DNA of 64,000 nt. It comes from Candidatus Jettenia caeni. Lineage in GTDB: Bacteria; Planctomycetota; Brocadiia; Brocadiales; Brocadiaceae. A model generated the notes under the pieces. It did no database searches and was not told the origin of the DNA. It was given only the letters and a program-made list of their open reading frames with translations. The stretch spans positions 186,401 through 250,400 of the forward strand of contig BAFH01000003.1 of the NCBI GenBank assembly GCA_000296795.1, read 5' to 3'. Positions 248 to 47,792 of the stretch are shown in pieces. Numbering within the stretch: the first letter of the stretch is position 1; each line of letters begins with the position of its first letter. Made by a program: the position numbers and the translations under genes.

Positions 248-2095
248 TCATTCTGCAGCGCAGAAATTTTTAGACCGCGCACAGCTTCCGCAATCGGGGC
301 AATTATCTGTACGACAATCCAGGGTGAATTCCCTGTTTGATGATTTCCGGTTTTCTTCTATAAGGAAGGGTTTTACAACGCCACAATTGATGTGATCCCA
401 GGGAAATACCTCGTCTTCGTTTCTTTGTCGGTGTGCGTAAAAGCTCCAGTCTATTCCGGCTTTATGAAATGCATCCAGCCATTTTTGAAATTTGAAATGT
501 TCTTCCCATGCATCAAACTTACATCCGTCCTGCCACGCCATAAAAATAACCTCGCCTAATCTTCTGTCCCCGCGTGCAAATATTCCTTCCAGAATACTCC
601 GTTCTGCATTATGGAATTTAATACGAATACACTTTCTCTGAATTCTCTTGAATAATGTATTTCTAATTTCTTTTATCCTTTCCAGGGTAATCATCGGTTG
701 CCACTGGAAAGGGGTGTGTGCCTTTGGCACAAAGGGCGCAATGCTGATATTGACTTGCCCAAAAGAGCCACAGACGCCTTTCCTTAAATCAGAGATATTA
801 TAGGCTAACCGTGCGATAGCATCGATATCATCATCTGTTTCTGTTGGGAGTCCAATCATAAAGTAGAGTTTAACAAGATTCCAACCCTGTTTAAAGGCTT
901 CTTCAATACCTCTGTAGAGATCTTCATCGGTAATGTTTTTGTTAATGATCTTTCGCAGATTCTGGGTTGCTGCCTCCGGCGCCAGGGTAAGTCCTGACTT
1001 GCGAACGGTATTTAGCATGGACGGCAAAAGGACAAGCTGTTCGTTTACCCGTAAGGACGGGAAAGAGATATTTACCTGTTTCCGGGTAAAGATACAATTC
1101 ATCTGTTCCATCAATGGCTTTAAGAACGGGTAGTCGCTAATAGAAAGAGATGCCAGGGAAATCTCGTTATGTCCTGTATTTGCATAGCTAAGTTCTGATA
1201 ACTTCAGGACATTTTCCACCGTACGAGGACGGGTAGGGCGCTTACTCATACCAGCCTGACAAAACCGGCACCCCTGTGTACAGCCACGCATGACCTCAAT
1301 GGTAATGCGATCGTGAATGGTTTTTACATAGGGTACAATAGGTTTTGTCGGATAATAGGTCTTATTTAAATCCCTGACGGAAGCAGAGCGTATCGTTGAT
1401 GGCAGACCGGATAATTTTGGACGTATCTCTCGCAGGGTATTATCCAAATGGTATGAGACAGTATAGAGAGAAGGAGTATAGGCATTTCTCAGGGTTTGTG
1501 CCAGAGAAATAATCCTCTCTTTCCGGGAGAGTCCTCGCTGCTTCATATCCTTATAGAGCTCAATAAGCTGCGGCAAGCTTTCTTCTCCGTCTCCTACAAG
1601 GAAGATATCGATAAAGTCTGCCATAGGTTCGGGAGAAATAGCGGCCGGGCCACCTGCAATGACAAGAGGATCTGTCTCATTTCGTTCCGATGCTATGATA
1701 GGAATTCCTGAGAGATCAAGCATGTTTAAAACATTTGTGTACGATAATTCATATTGGAGTGAGAAACCTACCATATCGAACTCTTTCAAAGGTGTGTAGG
1801 TTTCGAGAGAGAATAGGGGAATCTGGTGCTTCCTCATAAGCAATTCCATATCTTCCAAAGGGGCAAAGACCCTCTCACAAACAGTGTCCTTTCGGTCGTT
1901 GAGGAGCCCGTAAAGGATTTGAATGCCTAAATGAGACATACCGATACTATAGGTATCAGGAAACGCCAGCACAATTTTTACTTCGCTATCAGCATGGTCT
2001 TTCGTAATGGAATTCCATTCTCCTCCAATATACTGCCCGGGCATTTCCACGCATGGCAATATATTCTCTGTTACGAAATGTTTTAATGTATTCAT
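248..2095 (-). CDS. B12-binding radical SAM protein (TIGR03960-like)
   Basis: This 615-residue protein has an N-terminal cobalamin-binding-like region (residues about 40-190, with AGGPAAISPEPMADF and the FLVGDGEE segment) and a radical SAM core. The core's cluster motif, GCTQGCRFCQAG near residues 269-280, has the three cysteines in CxxxCxxC spacing that hold the 4Fe-4S cluster and bind S-adenosylmethionine. The C-terminus carries an extra Cys-rich patch (DCRTDNCPDCGSC) that could hold a second cluster. The family is widespread and often sits near RNase E/G or ribosomal protein genes, but its substrate is not established to my knowledge. Here it follows rodA, 131 bp downstream, so co-transcription with the shape operon is possible. 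The family call is firm; the function is open. Confidence 0.85.
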   Translation of the reverse strand: MNTLKHFVTENILPCVEMPGQYIGGEWNSITKDHADSEVKIVLAFPDTYSIGMSHLGIQILYGLLNDRKDTVCERVFAPLEDMELLMRKHQIPLFSLETYTPLKEFDMVGFSLQYELSYTNVLNMLDLSGIPIIASERNETDPLVIAGGPAAISPEPMADFIDIFLVGDGEESLPQLIELYKDMKQRGLSRKERIISLAQTLRNAYTPSLYTVSYHLDNTLREIRPKLSGLPSTIRSASVRDLNKTYYPTKPIVPYVKTIHDRITIEVMRGCTQGCRFCQAGMSKRPTRPRTVENVLKLSELSYANTGHNEISLASLSISDYPFLKPLMEQMNCIFTRKQVNISFPSLRVNEQLVLLPSMLNTVRKSGLTLAPEAATQNLRKIINKNITDEDLYRGIEEAFKQGWNLVKLYFMIGLPTETDDDIDAIARLAYNISDLRKGVCGSFGQVNISIAPFVPKAHTPFQWQPMITLERIKEIRNTLFKRIQRKCIRIKFHNAERSILEGIFARGDRRLGEVIFMAWQDGCKFDAWEEHFKFQKWLDAFHKAGIDWSFYAHRQRNEDEVFPWDHINCGVVKPFLIEENRKSSNREFTLDCRTDNCPDCGSCARSKNFCAAE

Positions 2096-2226
2096 ATGTA
2101 GTTTATATTAATAGGAAATCAGATATTAAGCAAGTATGTTTCATTTTAAAATGACAATTGGAACGCCACTTGGAATGGTGTACTGGATATCGATTGGGGA
2201 CGATATATTGGATTTCGGGCGGACTC

Positions 2227-3339
2227 TTAGTATCTCATTTCATAAAAGCGCCGGGATGCAAGGTCGATCTTTGAGCGCATTTTGACATTGAAAATAATGG
2301 AAAGGGCAACAAAGGATGTAAGCATAGATGACCCTCCATAGCTAATGAAAGGTAGTGTTACTCCTACGATAGGAGCTACTCCTAAAGTCATACCGACATT
2401 CACTACTATTTGGGTTGCAAACATTGTGACAAGACCAACTACGACAAGTCTTCCATAGGGATCTCGTGTATTCCTGGCAATACCGATACCACACGCAACG
2501 AAGGCGATGTAAAGAAGTAAGACAAGACAAGCCCGTAAGAATCCCCATTCCTCGGCAATAACGGCAAAGATAAAATCGGTATGGCGCTCGGGTAGAAATT
2601 TCATCTGGTTTTGGGTGCCATTTCCCCATCCTGTTCCGAATAGACCTCCTGAACCAATGGCGATAAGAGATTGGAGTCTATGATAACCGGCTCCCCAATC
2701 AGTAGTTTTTTCAGGCCAAAGAAAGCCGATAATTCTCAATTTTTGATACGATTTAAGCATAAACATCCAGAATAGTGGTGAAATAGCTAATCCTGTGCCG
2801 ATTAATATGAGTAAGTAAGAAAGCCGGATACCGGCAGCGTATAAAATAGAGAATAAGATAGGAACCAGAATTAACGCTGTACCCAGGTCTGGCTGTTTCA
2901 TAATAAGCGCCATGGGTATAAATGCCAGCAGGAGAGAAATTCCTATATCAAAGAATCCCAGTCCGTACTTCTTATACCTGAGAAATTTTGCGAGGGTAAG
3001 AACCAGGGTGATTTTCATAAATTCAGAGGGTTGGACAGAGAAAGAGCCAATAGAGAACCAACGCTGTGAGCCTTTTACAGAGCCTCCAATACTTAGTAGT
3101 AAAATCAAAAGAAAAAGAACTGATGCGTAGATAATATATGCATAATGTTCAAATGAAAGGTAATCAAAATAAAGAAGGGTAAAGAAAAGGGTGAATCCCA
3201 TTACAACCCAGATGATTTGTTTGAATAAAAATCTTTCGGACGATGCACTCCAAACGAAAAATACCCCTATCGTTAAAATGGTGCACAGTATAAGGAATAT
3301 CAGCCAATCAAAATTTCTTAGATTTACCTTGCTTGACAT
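2227..3339 (-). CDS. rodA: RodA, SEDS peptidoglycan glycosyltransferase
   Basis: This 370-residue polytopic inner-membrane protein of the SEDS family polymerises lipid II glycan strands for lateral wall synthesis with its partner PBP2. About ten hydrophobic segments are visible. Family landmarks include KQPDLGTALI, the PERHTDFIFAVIAEEWG loop containing the conserved Asp/Glu region, and the C-terminal GVTLPFISYGGSSML signature. Length is typical of RodA, and the gene lies directly downstream of the PBP2 gene, which argues for RodA rather than FtsW. The 252-bp gap to mrdA is unusually large for this operon and is filled by a dispersed repeat. Confidence 0.93.
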   Translation of the reverse strand: MSSKVNLRNFDWLIFLILCTILTIGVFFVWSASSERFLFKQIIWVVMGFTLFFTLLYFDYLSFEHYAYIIYASVLFLLILLLSIGGSVKGSQRWFSIGSFSVQPSEFMKITLVLTLAKFLRYKKYGLGFFDIGISLLLAFIPMALIMKQPDLGTALILVPILFSILYAAGIRLSYLLILIGTGLAISPLFWMFMLKSYQKLRIIGFLWPEKTTDWGAGYHRLQSLIAIGSGGLFGTGWGNGTQNQMKFLPERHTDFIFAVIAEEWGFLRACLVLLLYIAFVACGIGIARNTRDPYGRLVVVGLVTMFATQIVVNVGMTLGVAPIVGVTLPFISYGGSSMLTSFVALSIIFNVKMRSKIDLASRRFYEMRY

Positions 3340-15437: not shown

Positions 15438-15842
15438 TTATTGAGATTTACCAAAAGAAAATTTTCCCTGAATACCTCCTACCGTCATAAATAGTTCTGA
15501 GTCGCTTTTTGTCAAAAAGAGGAGGACGCGTTCGTTGGTTTCAAAGACAGGACTATCTTCCATTCCCGGCGAGAAAATAACTTTTATCTCCGCACCGGCA
15601 GTGGGTTTTCCCTTAAGTATACATTCAACGAAAATAATAGCCTCCCGGTTGTCTCCCTTTGAATGAATCTCTTTAACCTCTCCGTATATAACGAGATCAG
15701 AACGGGCAATAAGTTCTGAGTTATCCATCCTCAACATAATACTATATGCTGGTGTGGAGGAAAAACTCCATAAATATAGAATAAGGAAGAGGAGGAAAAT
15801 CCCCCTCTTCCTTTTTTCCTTTTTATACTTTGCTAGCCACAT
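15438..15842 (-). CDS. Small exported protein of unknown function
   Basis: This 134-residue protein has a basic N-terminus (KYKKEKRKR) and a hydrophobic signal segment (residues 15-31), so it is probably exported or membrane-anchored. The mature part contains ELIARSDLVIYGEVKEI, a pattern seen in secreted beta-rich proteins of unknown function, then FVECILKGKPTAGAEIKVIFSPG. Its ATG directly follows the stop of the metalloprotease gene (no gap), so the two are translationally coupled. It may be an accessory to the protease; no function can be named. Confidence 0.7.
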   Translation of the reverse strand: MWLAKYKKEKRKRGIFLLFLILYLWSFSSTPAYSIMLRMDNSELIARSDLVIYGEVKEIHSKGDNREAIIFVECILKGKPTAGAEIKVIFSPGMEDSPVFETNERVLLFLTKSDSELFMTVGGIQGKFSFGKSQ

Positions 15843-17105
15843 TTAATGCTTTCCTTCATTATAAAAATTTGTTCCTATATCCCTGCTGCTGTTCTTTGGA
15901 TTTACAAATCTCACATTAAATGTAGCAACCTTAGAGGCGTCTCCCGGATTAACCACAATATCCCCAACTACAATTCCATTGAGAGAAACGCGAAGGGTCT
16001 CCGGGCCCAGAAGAATATTATCTGAAATAGTCAAAGTGACCTTGACCTGATCAATATCTTTATATGAACTGGAGAGTCTGTGTTGTGCCCGATAAAGATC
16101 TCCTATATGCCACCAATAACCGTCAAATTGGGAAACAAAAGGATCGCGTGAAAGTACACCATCTACATCGGCTTTTGACCCACCCGTATCTGTATCTGCG
16201 GTAGGTAAATGGCGAGTCGTATAGTTTGCAGTTCCTTTTTGTCTGAGCTGTACCTTTACATCTTTTTCACGAAGTCTGAAACTTCCGGAGCCAGGAGCTG
16301 GAATTGAAACAGATTCAATCTGAATAATCACATCTTCTGGCCTGGATCCATAAATCGCATAAATACCTGCAATATCATCATACGAAAGATAAGGTTTTCT
16401 TCCCGTGTAAAAAGGATACATAAGGGCATTGGGATCAGAGGAATGTGCCAATCCGAGGGAATGTCCGATTTCATGTGCCGCGACGGTAAGCAAATCAATC
16501 CCTGCCCCACCATAGGTTGGAGTTACCCATGTTTCATCTTCATCAAAGTGGACATCGCCAGCAATACATCCCCCATTGACGGGTGGTGGATACCACGCAT
16601 GTGCCAGCACACCGCCGGGTCCGTCAAAAGGATATCCGTCACCATGGTCTCCTGCTCCCCACCAGATACGGATGTCACCAGCACATGAGTTAGCCCCACC
16701 GTCTGCAACTTCTGTTGGTTTAACCTCTGCTACATTTGACCAGAGTCCGAATGCCTGTCCTATAACTCCCCGCTCCGATGCCCAGGAGATATCAGGACTG
16801 GTATTTCCAAAGCTGTAGGTAAAGCCAGCGATGGGCCAACTTCCACCGGTAAGAGCATAAGGAGCTAGTCCTGCAGGAAGGTCATCATAGAGACAGGGAG
16901 AGTCGCTGGTGCAGGGTGATGCTGATGCAGAGGGGGGAGGCGTTGGTTCTACCCGAAGGATTGTGCTATTGTTATTTGTTACAATAAAATTTTTTCCCTG
17001 ATATATATAACTAACACCTTCGGTGTCTGCTGCAATGGATAAGCTTCCCATCGTTCCCAGAGAAAACAGAGAAATAAACGATATACATATTTTTACATTT
17101 TTCAT
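15843..17105 (-). CDS. Secreted matrixin-like zinc metalloprotease
   Basis: This 420-residue protein begins with a signal peptide (residues 1-25, ending near SIAA). The catalytic domain holds the metzincin zinc site HEIGHSLGLAH near residues 211-221 and the following Met-turn ALMYPF, as in matrixin (M10) peptidases. Calcium-site-like sequence (HFDEDETW) precedes it. A C-terminal beta-rich region (about 255-410) may anchor or target the enzyme. It is presumably secreted and degrades protein outside the cytoplasm. A probable c-di-GMP riboswitch and terminator lie in its long leader (17354-17545), so expression may follow the second messenger that controls attachment. Confidence 0.88.
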   Translation of the reverse strand: MKNVKICISFISLFSLGTMGSLSIAADTEGVSYIYQGKNFIVTNNNSTILRVEPTPPPSASASPCTSDSPCLYDDLPAGLAPYALTGGSWPIAGFTYSFGNTSPDISWASERGVIGQAFGLWSNVAEVKPTEVADGGANSCAGDIRIWWGAGDHGDGYPFDGPGGVLAHAWYPPPVNGGCIAGDVHFDEDETWVTPTYGGAGIDLLTVAAHEIGHSLGLAHSSDPNALMYPFYTGRKPYLSYDDIAGIYAIYGSRPEDVIIQIESVSIPAPGSGSFRLREKDVKVQLRQKGTANYTTRHLPTADTDTGGSKADVDGVLSRDPFVSQFDGYWWHIGDLYRAQHRLSSSYKDIDQVKVTLTISDNILLGPETLRVSLNGIVVGDIVVNPGDASKVATFNVRFVNPKNSSRDIGTNFYNEGKH

Positions 17106-17353: not shown

Positions 17354-17406
17354 CAAAAAAGCCTTACTGCAAAGATATTCATGGAAAATATCTTCGGCAG
17401 TAAGGC
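17354..17406 (-). terminator. Intrinsic terminator in the metalloprotease leader
   Basis: Minus strand: GCCTTACTGC (17406-17397) pairs perfectly with GCAGTAAGGC (17370-17361), with further pairing inside (GAAGATATT / AATATCTTT), and is followed by six T. It sits between the predicted riboswitch and the metalloprotease start, the place of an expression platform. Confidence 0.85.
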
Positions 17407-17439
17407 TATCTTATTTCTATCGTGTCAGTTATAAGTGTA

Positions 17440-17545
17440 AGTGTCTGTTATTTATACTGACACTGTTTACGAACACTATCCACGGTTACAAGACCCTTTA
17501 CTTTGCGTCCTCCGATCACTCGGAGTTTACCTTTGTCGAATATTT
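17440..17545 (-). promoter_or_regulatory. Probable c-di-GMP-I (GEMM) riboswitch
   Basis: On the minus strand the sequence reads AAAGGTAAAC, then a 6-bp stem CTCCGA / TCGGAG closed by a GUGA (GNRA) tetraloop, then GGACGCAAAG (17510-17501), AAAGGGTCTTG and GGATAGTG. This order, AAAGGyAAAC - GNRA stem - GGACGCAAAG - GGGTCT - GGAYAG, is the conserved core of the GEMM / c-di-GMP-I class. The distal half is less conventional: a GTGTCAGT / ACTGACAC stem near 17424-17464 may form P3 or an anti-terminator. The downstream terminator at 17354-17406 suggests transcriptional control. Class I is likely; the exact ligand (c-di-GMP or cGAMP) cannot be settled by eye. Confidence 0.75.
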
Positions 17546-29720: not shown

Positions 29721-30289
29721 GTGCCCAGGGAAGGGTACTGCATTCTAGCGGGTGAAAGTCCCGTCATGGTAAAAGCCTGAGCCATGTAGCTTGGATGGCA
29801 GGAGGATAGGGAAACATTACCTTCTGAAGCCCATCGACAAAGTCGGCGTAAGGCCGGTGAGCAACTAGCCGGGTCGTAACGTACGTGAACGTAGAGGTAG
29901 CCTCGTAAAAGTCAAATACCACTGGCCGAGCCTGTCAATAGTAGGCGAAGGCGGAATTCTCTGACCTAAACTAGCTAATAGGAAAAGGACGGTGGCGGGG
30001 TATCAGCGGCGACACGGAGGGAAAGGAGAGGTAGCAACTGGGGAAACCCTCCTTGCCCCTGATAGAAATATCAGGAGCGAAGGTAAGCCCTATAAGTCCT
30101 ACGGCGAAATGGGCAGACAGACAAGAGGGTGGCGGATGAGTCCATAGTAGTGAGGATGGCAAGGACAACACAACCTTGCCGGAGCGAAGGGGCTCTGCTG
30201 TGTCTTAAATCTTTTCTATGGAGGTGAGGCAGGGAAGAATGACAAAGGCTTCTATAAATCTGCAGGAACTGAGGAGAAAGAGTAGTTAC

Positions 30290-42560: not shown

Positions 42561-44157
<1,597 letters not shown>

Positions 44158-44167
44158 TAAAAAGAAC

Positions 44168-44206
44168 TGATTCAATTCAGCTCGCACGCGGAAGGCTTCT
44201 TATGTT
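44168..44206 (+). other. 16S processing stem, 3' arm
   Basis: Complementary to 42454-42495 in three blocks. It lies between 16S and tRNA-Ile and completes the pre-16S processing helix. Confidence 0.75.
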
Positions 44207-44298
44207 ATTTTATAAAAATACGTTTTCATTATCAGAGCTAAGGCAAGCAGTGATAGGAGTAAGGGAAGGTGCAGGCCCAAAGATATTGATACCATTTT

Positions 44299-44376
44299 GG
44301 GCCTATAGCTCAGTTGGTTTAGAGCATTCCCCTGATAAGGGAAAGGTCAGTGGTTCGAATCCACTTAGGCCCACCA
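44299..44376 (+). tRNA. tRNA-Ile (GAT)
   Basis: 78 nt including an encoded CCA. The anticodon stem-loop CCCCTGATAAGGG gives anticodon GAT, the T arm is GGTTCGAATCC, and the acceptor stem GGGCCTA pairs with TAGGCCC. It sits in the 16S-23S spacer as usual. Confidence 0.97.
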
Positions 44377-44409
44377 CTTCCGATTATGATGTATGGAGTT
44401 TTGGAAGCG

Positions 44410-44485
44410 GGGGATGTAGCTCAATTGGGAGAGCGCTGCCCTTGCAAGGCAGAGGTTGGCGGTTCGATCCCGCTCATCTCCACCA
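44410..44485 (+). tRNA. tRNA-Ala (TGC)
   Basis: 76 nt including an encoded CCA. The anticodon loop is in GCCCTTGCAAGGC, the T arm is GGTTCGATCCC, and the acceptor GGGGATG pairs with CATCTCC (one G-U). It has the G-U pair in the acceptor stem typical of alanine tRNA recognition in general, though not checked at position 3:70 in detail. Confidence 0.96.
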
Positions 44486-44611
44486 CTTTAAATCGGCATA
44501 AGGATTTAAGGTAATTAAAGAATACGTAAAATACTAAATTTTGTTCTTTGAAAAGTGAATACTTAACGGGTAGCAATTAGATCCTCTTTGGATAAGATGA
44601 TTACAAAAGTT

Positions 44612-47608
<2,997 letters not shown>

Positions 47609-47681
47609 TTTTGATTGCCTTATCCAAAAGTATCTGTTGTTACCGTTAAGATATTCATCTGTTCATCATATGTCCTTTATG

Positions 47682-47792
47682 TTCCGGTGGGCATAGTAAG
47701 AGTGAAACACCCGTTCCCATTCCGAACACGGTAGTTAAGCCTCTTACGCCAATGGTACTGGCGAAAGCCGGGAGAGTAGGTCACTGCCGGAA
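47682..47792 (+). rRNA. rrf: 5S ribosomal RNA
   Basis: About 111 nt. Terminal stem TTCCGGTGG pairs with the 3' CACTGCCGGAA; the internal CCGTTCCCATTCCGAACACGG stretch and the GAGAGTAGG segment are typical. It closes the rRNA operon. Confidence 0.93.

Follow-up and report, generated by a model that had tools for sequence, protein, structure and literature searches.

A c-di-GMP class-I riboswitch with an aptamer-overlapping terminator, predicted to act as an ON switch, ahead of a secreted matrixin gene in the anammox bacterium Candidatus Jettenia caeni

What controls the matrixin-type protease gene of Candidatus Jettenia caeni, and in which direction would the control work? The gene lies on the minus strand of a 64,000-nt stretch of contig BAFH01000003.1 (the window), for which a preliminary description had proposed a GEMM riboswitch ahead of the protease. 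The whole window was compared with all 4227 Rfam families by cmscan, and positions 17393-17541 (minus strand) matched the c-di-GMP-I (GEMM-I) family RF01051 at 55 bits (cut-off 35; E 5.1e-8 for a search of this extent). The proposal thus passed the above-threshold Rfam check, and by covariance model the element at 17541-17393 classifies as a class-I c-di-GMP (GEMM-I) aptamer. A second model, RF03167 (c-di-GMP-I-GGC), aligned to 17392-17540 at 56.5 bits, below its cut-off of 59, so the score for membership of that family was not reached. By folding, the leader was more stable than 200 of 200 shuffled sequences (z -5.35). Searches of the complete genome (G000) with RF01051 detected 24 GEMM-I loci with E below 0.003, 18 of them over the cut-off, and two more matches at E above 2; RF03167 found the same 24 loci, and its cut-off was reached by 9, all other than the window copy. 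A candidate at C1:33628 (E 2.45) was dropped as GEMM-I because its GCAAAG core is missing. Elsewhere in the window, a group II intron domain match (RF02003, 114.4 bits) was observed at 29746-29884 (plus strand), as was a complete rRNA operon in which two tRNAs separate the SSU from the LSU (42561-47792, plus strand).

The aptamer is laid out as a P1-P2-P3 three-way junction with a long P3 arm, all on the minus strand. The P1 5' strand and J1/2 (ATTCGACAAAGGTAAAC, 17525-17541) contain the GG of the ligand pocket, which we take to be G20/G21 in Vc2 numbering, and are followed by a P2 hairpin with a GTGA (GNRA) tetraloop (17511-17524), in which three pairs vary on both sides among related copies, by the J2/3 core GGACGCAAAG (17501-17510) and by the P3 5' strand from about 17502. 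About 75 nt of distal arm lie between the P3 strands; this arm and the base of the P3 3' strand make up a 78-nt module (17406-17483), and the P3 and P1 3' strands (GATAGCCTTACTGCCGAA, 17393-17410) double as the 5' arm of a terminator. The core motifs first read from the letters (GGTAAAC, the GTGA-capped P2, GGACGCAAAG and GGGTCT) were confirmed at these positions. The GGATAG listed with them is present at about 17482-17477 but belongs to the distal arm, which is variable; GATAGCC at 17410-17404 is the conserved 3' strand of P3. As in RF01051 and RF03167, the three stems, the GNRA-capped P2, the pocket sequences (GG[C/T]AAAC and GACGCAAAG) and the P3 GAUAGCC strand are all present. The window element differs from these models in a P3 arm extending about 60 nt beyond the consensus and in a GGC-model score just short of the cut-off.

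The pocket also bears on the identity of the ligand. GG before [C/T]AAA and GCAAAG were found in 24/24 GEMM-I copies of this genome, a combination that we take to be a c-di-GMP-type pocket by Vc2 rules. GEMM aptamers of the cGAMP type (GEMM-Ib) have an A at the Vc2 G20 position; the equivalent selectivity position, in Vc2 numbering, is G in all 24 copies and the cGAMP-type A is absent, which argues against binding of 3',3'-cGAMP. A search of the signal side that covered GGDEF and PilZ domains detected GGDEF at 10 places in the genome (one a partial domain right behind a riboswitch, C4:469774), which was counted as support for the c-di-GMP reading, and PilZ at one. We regard cGAMP as an improbable ligand for this aptamer, even though Geobacter GEMM-I RNAs can bind it (12 shown binders and 17 GEMM-I in G. 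sulfurreducens, in the accessible text of PMC8835794) and the nearest published architecture, pilM, is a cGAMP switch (PMC9262584, accessible part).

An intrinsic terminator had been described downstream of the aptamer. It is real, with a stem-loop at 17406-17361 and T6 at 17360-17355 (17355-17406 in all, minus strand, -28.3 kcal/mol), but overlaps the aptamer 3' strand instead of following the aptamer. Because the terminator 5' arm is the P3/P1 3' strand, aptamer and terminator are mutually exclusive, and an ON switch, in which c-di-GMP permits read-through, is predicted. When P1 and P2 were forced before the terminator 3' arm exists, the cost was 0.2 kcal/mol, and with this arm present and no ligand the terminator-containing fold was better by 18.8 kcal/mol; both are secondary-structure energies, which take no account of ligand or tertiary contacts, and P3 is drawn incorrectly when nothing is forced. 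MicroRNA-family matches on the terminator, all below cut-off, were rejected as chance hairpin matches. No convincing sigma-70 promoter was found, the 2 weak sites detected comparing with 3.5 expected by chance.

In the proposed mechanism, the leader emerging from the polymerase would fold first into the P1-P2-P3 aptamer. When c-di-GMP is absent, the terminator 3' arm, once synthesized to its end at 17361, would capture the strand that closes P3 and P1 (17410-17393) as the 5' arm of a strong terminator, and transcription would halt about 250 nt ahead of the matrixin gene. When c-di-GMP is bound, the same strand would be held in the aptamer, the terminator would be blocked, and the matrixin and a small partner ORF would be transcribed. 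In the accessible portion of PMC9262584, the Geobacter pilM element is described as an ON switch in which aptamer and terminator exclude each other, and Cd1 of C. difficile as an OFF switch in which the two coexist. The arrangement that marks pilM-type ON switches, a terminator built on the aptamer 3' strand with mutually exclusive folds, was found in the window copy. The Geobacter metallireducens pilM switch differs from it in sensing cGAMP and controlling pili (PMC9262584), whereas the window element combines a c-di-GMP-type pocket with a protease.

The opposite polarity has a precedent in C. difficile, where class-I switches are mostly OFF and where, according to the accessible text of PMC6200980, a class-I riboswitch (Cdi-1-12) ahead of the secreted zinc metalloprotease ZmpI places this enzyme under negative control by c-di-GMP. 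Lowered matrixin expression upon c-di-GMP binding would parallel ZmpI, and six other copies in the Jettenia genome, which have a separate downstream terminator, could be OFF switches. At the window copy, by contrast, terminator and aptamer compete for one strand, the aptamer 3' strand, so that only one of the two can form, and neither a separate terminator nor an antiterminator was seen; this architecture predicts activation. Since the C. difficile class-I switches are mostly OFF, polarity is not transferable from there to the window copy, and we consider an OFF switch here to be unlikely. Our preferred reading, to which we give a probability of roughly 85%, is that the window element is a c-di-GMP class-I riboswitch acting as a transcriptional ON switch. 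The aptamer match, the terminator overlap and the conservation of the element with its gene across two genera are computed results, while c-di-GMP as the ligand, the ON polarity and a protease acting at the cell surface or within the granule matrix are readings that we infer.

The controlled gene (15843-17105, minus strand) encodes a 420-aa protein with a matrixin (M10) domain (PF00413, 2.4e-45, 154.7 bits against a cut-off of 24), and the metzincin gene of the preliminary description is thus specified as a matrixin. The catalytic domain (residues 83-253) has the HExxHxxGxxH motif (HEIGHSLGLAH at residue 211) and the Met-turn (LMYP at 228), and a signal peptide is evident by eye. ZmpI is not known to be a matrixin. 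The nearest solved structures are karilysin (2xs4, 3.6e-43, the best match) and matrix metalloproteinases (MMPs), M10A enzymes with which the Jettenia protein shares the matrixin catalytic domain, HExxHxxGxxH and Met-turn, and from which it differs in its C-terminal region (about residues 260-420, no Pfam match) and in its environmental anammox host. The enzyme might act on matrix proteins or in the granule matrix. Immediately after it lies a 134-aa ORF (15438-15842, minus strand) with no Pfam match, which by tblastn is 95.5% identical in L108/L122, 91.8% in L121 and 62% in L109/L123 (Brocadia) and is likely, from this conservation, to be an operon partner of the matrixin. Between terminator and matrixin, at about 17272-17249 of the minus strand, a strong Shine-Dalgarno sequence (AGGAGGTGAT) precedes a two-codon ORF (ATG-ACC-stop) that is kept in the Jettenia leaders.

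The pairing of switch and gene was compared among 33 anammox-family genomes. The matrixin was detected in four, namely G000, G016 and G017 of the same genus and G008 of another genus (64% identity), and a GEMM-I element lies upstream on the same strand in 4/4 (the window, L121, L122 and L123). Ca. Jettenia ecosi J2 (matrixin 96%) and Ca. Brocadia sp. AMX1 (63%) also have the riboswitch; in aptamer sequence they do not differ from L122 and L123, so these are probably the same genomes and were counted once. None of 10 non-anammox matrixin loci (L110-L119, one from another planctomycete) had an Rfam match over cut-off. The link between riboswitch and matrixin is thus strengthened by its retention in a second genus. 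A decayed, non-functional copy kept by chance, with the terminator as an ordinary attenuator, would fit the whole-genome search, in which the window copy scored 34.0 bits, one bit short of the RF01051 cut-off of 35, and a clearly degenerate copy without terminator does occur in this genome (C3:1304552). The 34.0 bits arose because the match ended within the long P3 arm, whereas cmscan aligns the entire element, and the full-length alignment (55 bits) is the better measure. The leader is moreover 98.5% identical to that of G017, and the Brocadia orthologue keeps the aptamer core and terminator although its distal arm and downstream leader differ, so that decay appears very improbable.

The unusual distal half had been suspected to define a variant. 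The long P3 arm is nearly limited to Jettenia, but the pocket sequences are of ordinary c-di-GMP type and no new aptamer was found. The 78-nt module has 10 matches in G000, all at its 10 long-arm GEMM loci (the window copy and nine others). Across the 33 genomes, the three of Jettenia have 10, 11 and 10 copies of it, G004 and G021 a single copy each, and the other 28 none. The arm was rejected as a mobile repeat or independent RNA, as the 10 places of the module in G000 are the 10 long-arm GEMM loci and the arm differs in Brocadia. When the window was compared to six of the nine other long-arm loci, the aptamer-terminator block was 85-89% identical (shuffle maximum 69), while the 100 nt downstream (49-61%) and the region 130-70 nt upstream of the anchor (47-64%) were at chance level. 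With the block conserved and the flanks at chance, copies within one genome resemble one another more in the arm than the matrixin switch resembles its Brocadia orthologue. We read this as a sign that an aptamer-terminator unit with the long P3 arm was copied ahead of several unrelated genes within Jettenia; gene conversion between GEMM copies is an alternative. Most GEMM copies have a single best partner in G017, and thus much of the copying would predate that split.

Covariation was assessed with 15 distinct copies, a set that leaves aside C4:582200 (here one base off C4:576126), L142 (shortened by the search pattern), and L138 and L139 (where the pattern missed GCACAAAG). Both sides change in 5 of 40 pairs: the three in P2 and two in the innermost arm helix (one sequence each). 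In the distal arm, further pair types among these 15 copies were not above shuffles (463/500 reach the count). An arm-shaped hairpin in distal P3 is likely, with thin support from covariation.

The overlapping terminator is one of several layouts among the 24 Jettenia copies: in 12 the terminator overlaps the aptamer (gap -13 to -18), in 6 it is separate (24-35 nt downstream), in 5 none is convincing and 1 copy is degenerate. In the Brocadia-like genome G006, the overlap layout was found in 27 of 30 copies read, from 56 matches. Jettenia targets were assigned by position only, from ORFs and Pfam. Those of the overlap kind include the matrixin, two very long secreted ORFs whose repeats look PKD-like by eye, a 1693-aa ORF that matched nothing in Pfam, a short-chain dehydrogenase, a DUF883 protein and, behind a transposase, a glycogen-debranching type enzyme. 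At C3:877264, Ig-like and beta-helix domains occur in a 1600-aa stretch that lies further downstream, and several copies have no clear gene. Separate terminators precede genes for a pseudopilin, PilM, a Tad pilus (prepilin peptidase, RcpC/CpaB, secretin), a glycosyltransferase and export cluster, an aminotransferase-type enzyme, and a HEAT-repeat protein with a subtilase. Copies without terminator precede beta-helix proteins, a histidine kinase and a response regulator-GGDEF-methyltransferase protein. By these assignments, pili, polysaccharide and large secreted proteins make up most of the targets. Three near-identical canonical copies without terminator lie at C3:537948, 542960 and 543302; two of them precede near-identical 633-aa beta-helix proteins, with GGAGGTGCTGGTATG close behind, and translational control and recent duplication appear likely from this arrangement.

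For the six separate-terminator copies, complementarity between the aptamer 3' strand and the terminator 3' arm exceeded that of shuffles in 4 (reached by at most 19/500), with 54 and 197 of 500 shuffles reaching it in the other two; at one of the six, C4:87131, P1/J1-2 pairs strongly with the terminator 5' arm. Duplex and partition-function folding revealed no common antiterminator over the six, and OFF polarity for these copies is thus a guess. A second secreted protease, a subtilase (PF00082; L060:2833-5995, behind C4:531243), follows a GEMM-I of this separate layout, and the two proteases may therefore be oppositely controlled.

GEMM-I elements over cut-off were detected in 33/33 anammox-family genomes, with between 1 and 56 matches per genome (E up to 0.001). 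The 4.1-Mb genome G006 has 55 over cut-off, a few of which may be duplicates (tandem or assembly), as locus pairs about 22 kb apart are near-equal in sequence (C1:13664/35985 and 20403/42059). At L159 of this genome (C1:1909802, plus strand), a GEMM-I lies ahead of ORFs at 1756-1998 and 2025-3116, with a contractile-tail-sheath-like ORF recognized by eye (Pfam gave no match at 1e-4); c-di-GMP might here control a contractile injection system. In a draw of 246 Planctomycetota genomes, 76 of 235 outside the family had a match, with 1 to 5 each, 17 candidates being scored per genome under stricter filters than in the family search. Geobacter uraniireducens has about 30 GEMM-I. The comparison with Geobacter rests on published counts, which include 17 GEMM-I for G. 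sulfurreducens (PMC8835794), and the 12 class I and 4 class II switches of C. difficile 630 have been called a particularly large number (PMC6366702), both as given in the accessible text.

The window riboswitch belongs to a known class. In the openly accessible, partly available literature on anammox, Brocadiaceae and planctomycetes with c-di-GMP, riboswitches or GEMM, no description of anammox GEMM-I riboswitches was found, and the accessible text of PMC12452182, from the literature on riboswitch duplication or paralogs, does not mention planctomycetes; within this searchable literature, the expansion and the copying of the unit look new. We see about an even chance that riboswitches are the main receptors of a c-di-GMP programme in anammox bacteria (24 GEMM-I against a single PilZ in Jettenia, about 55 GEMM-I in the Brocadia-like genome), a programme that in Jettenia would have grown by copying of a self-contained ON-switch unit of about 180 bp before unrelated genes for secreted and surface proteins, and that would have a second, separate-terminator architecture at pili and polysaccharide genes. 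A riboswitch class that reaches dozens of copies per genome by way of one copied unit is a good case for the growth of an RNA regulon. Anammox bacteria form granules and biofilms in wastewater treatment, and for anammox granular sludge the accessible text of a review ties EPS to the level of c-di-GMP (PMC11224092). The riboswitch list provides candidate direct targets (pili, polysaccharide genes, large secreted proteins and proteases) that can be tested in vitro, with no need of the genetics that uncultured anammox bacteria lack. These copy numbers suggest that RNA switches of this kind give granule-forming anammox bacteria control over much of their cell surface.
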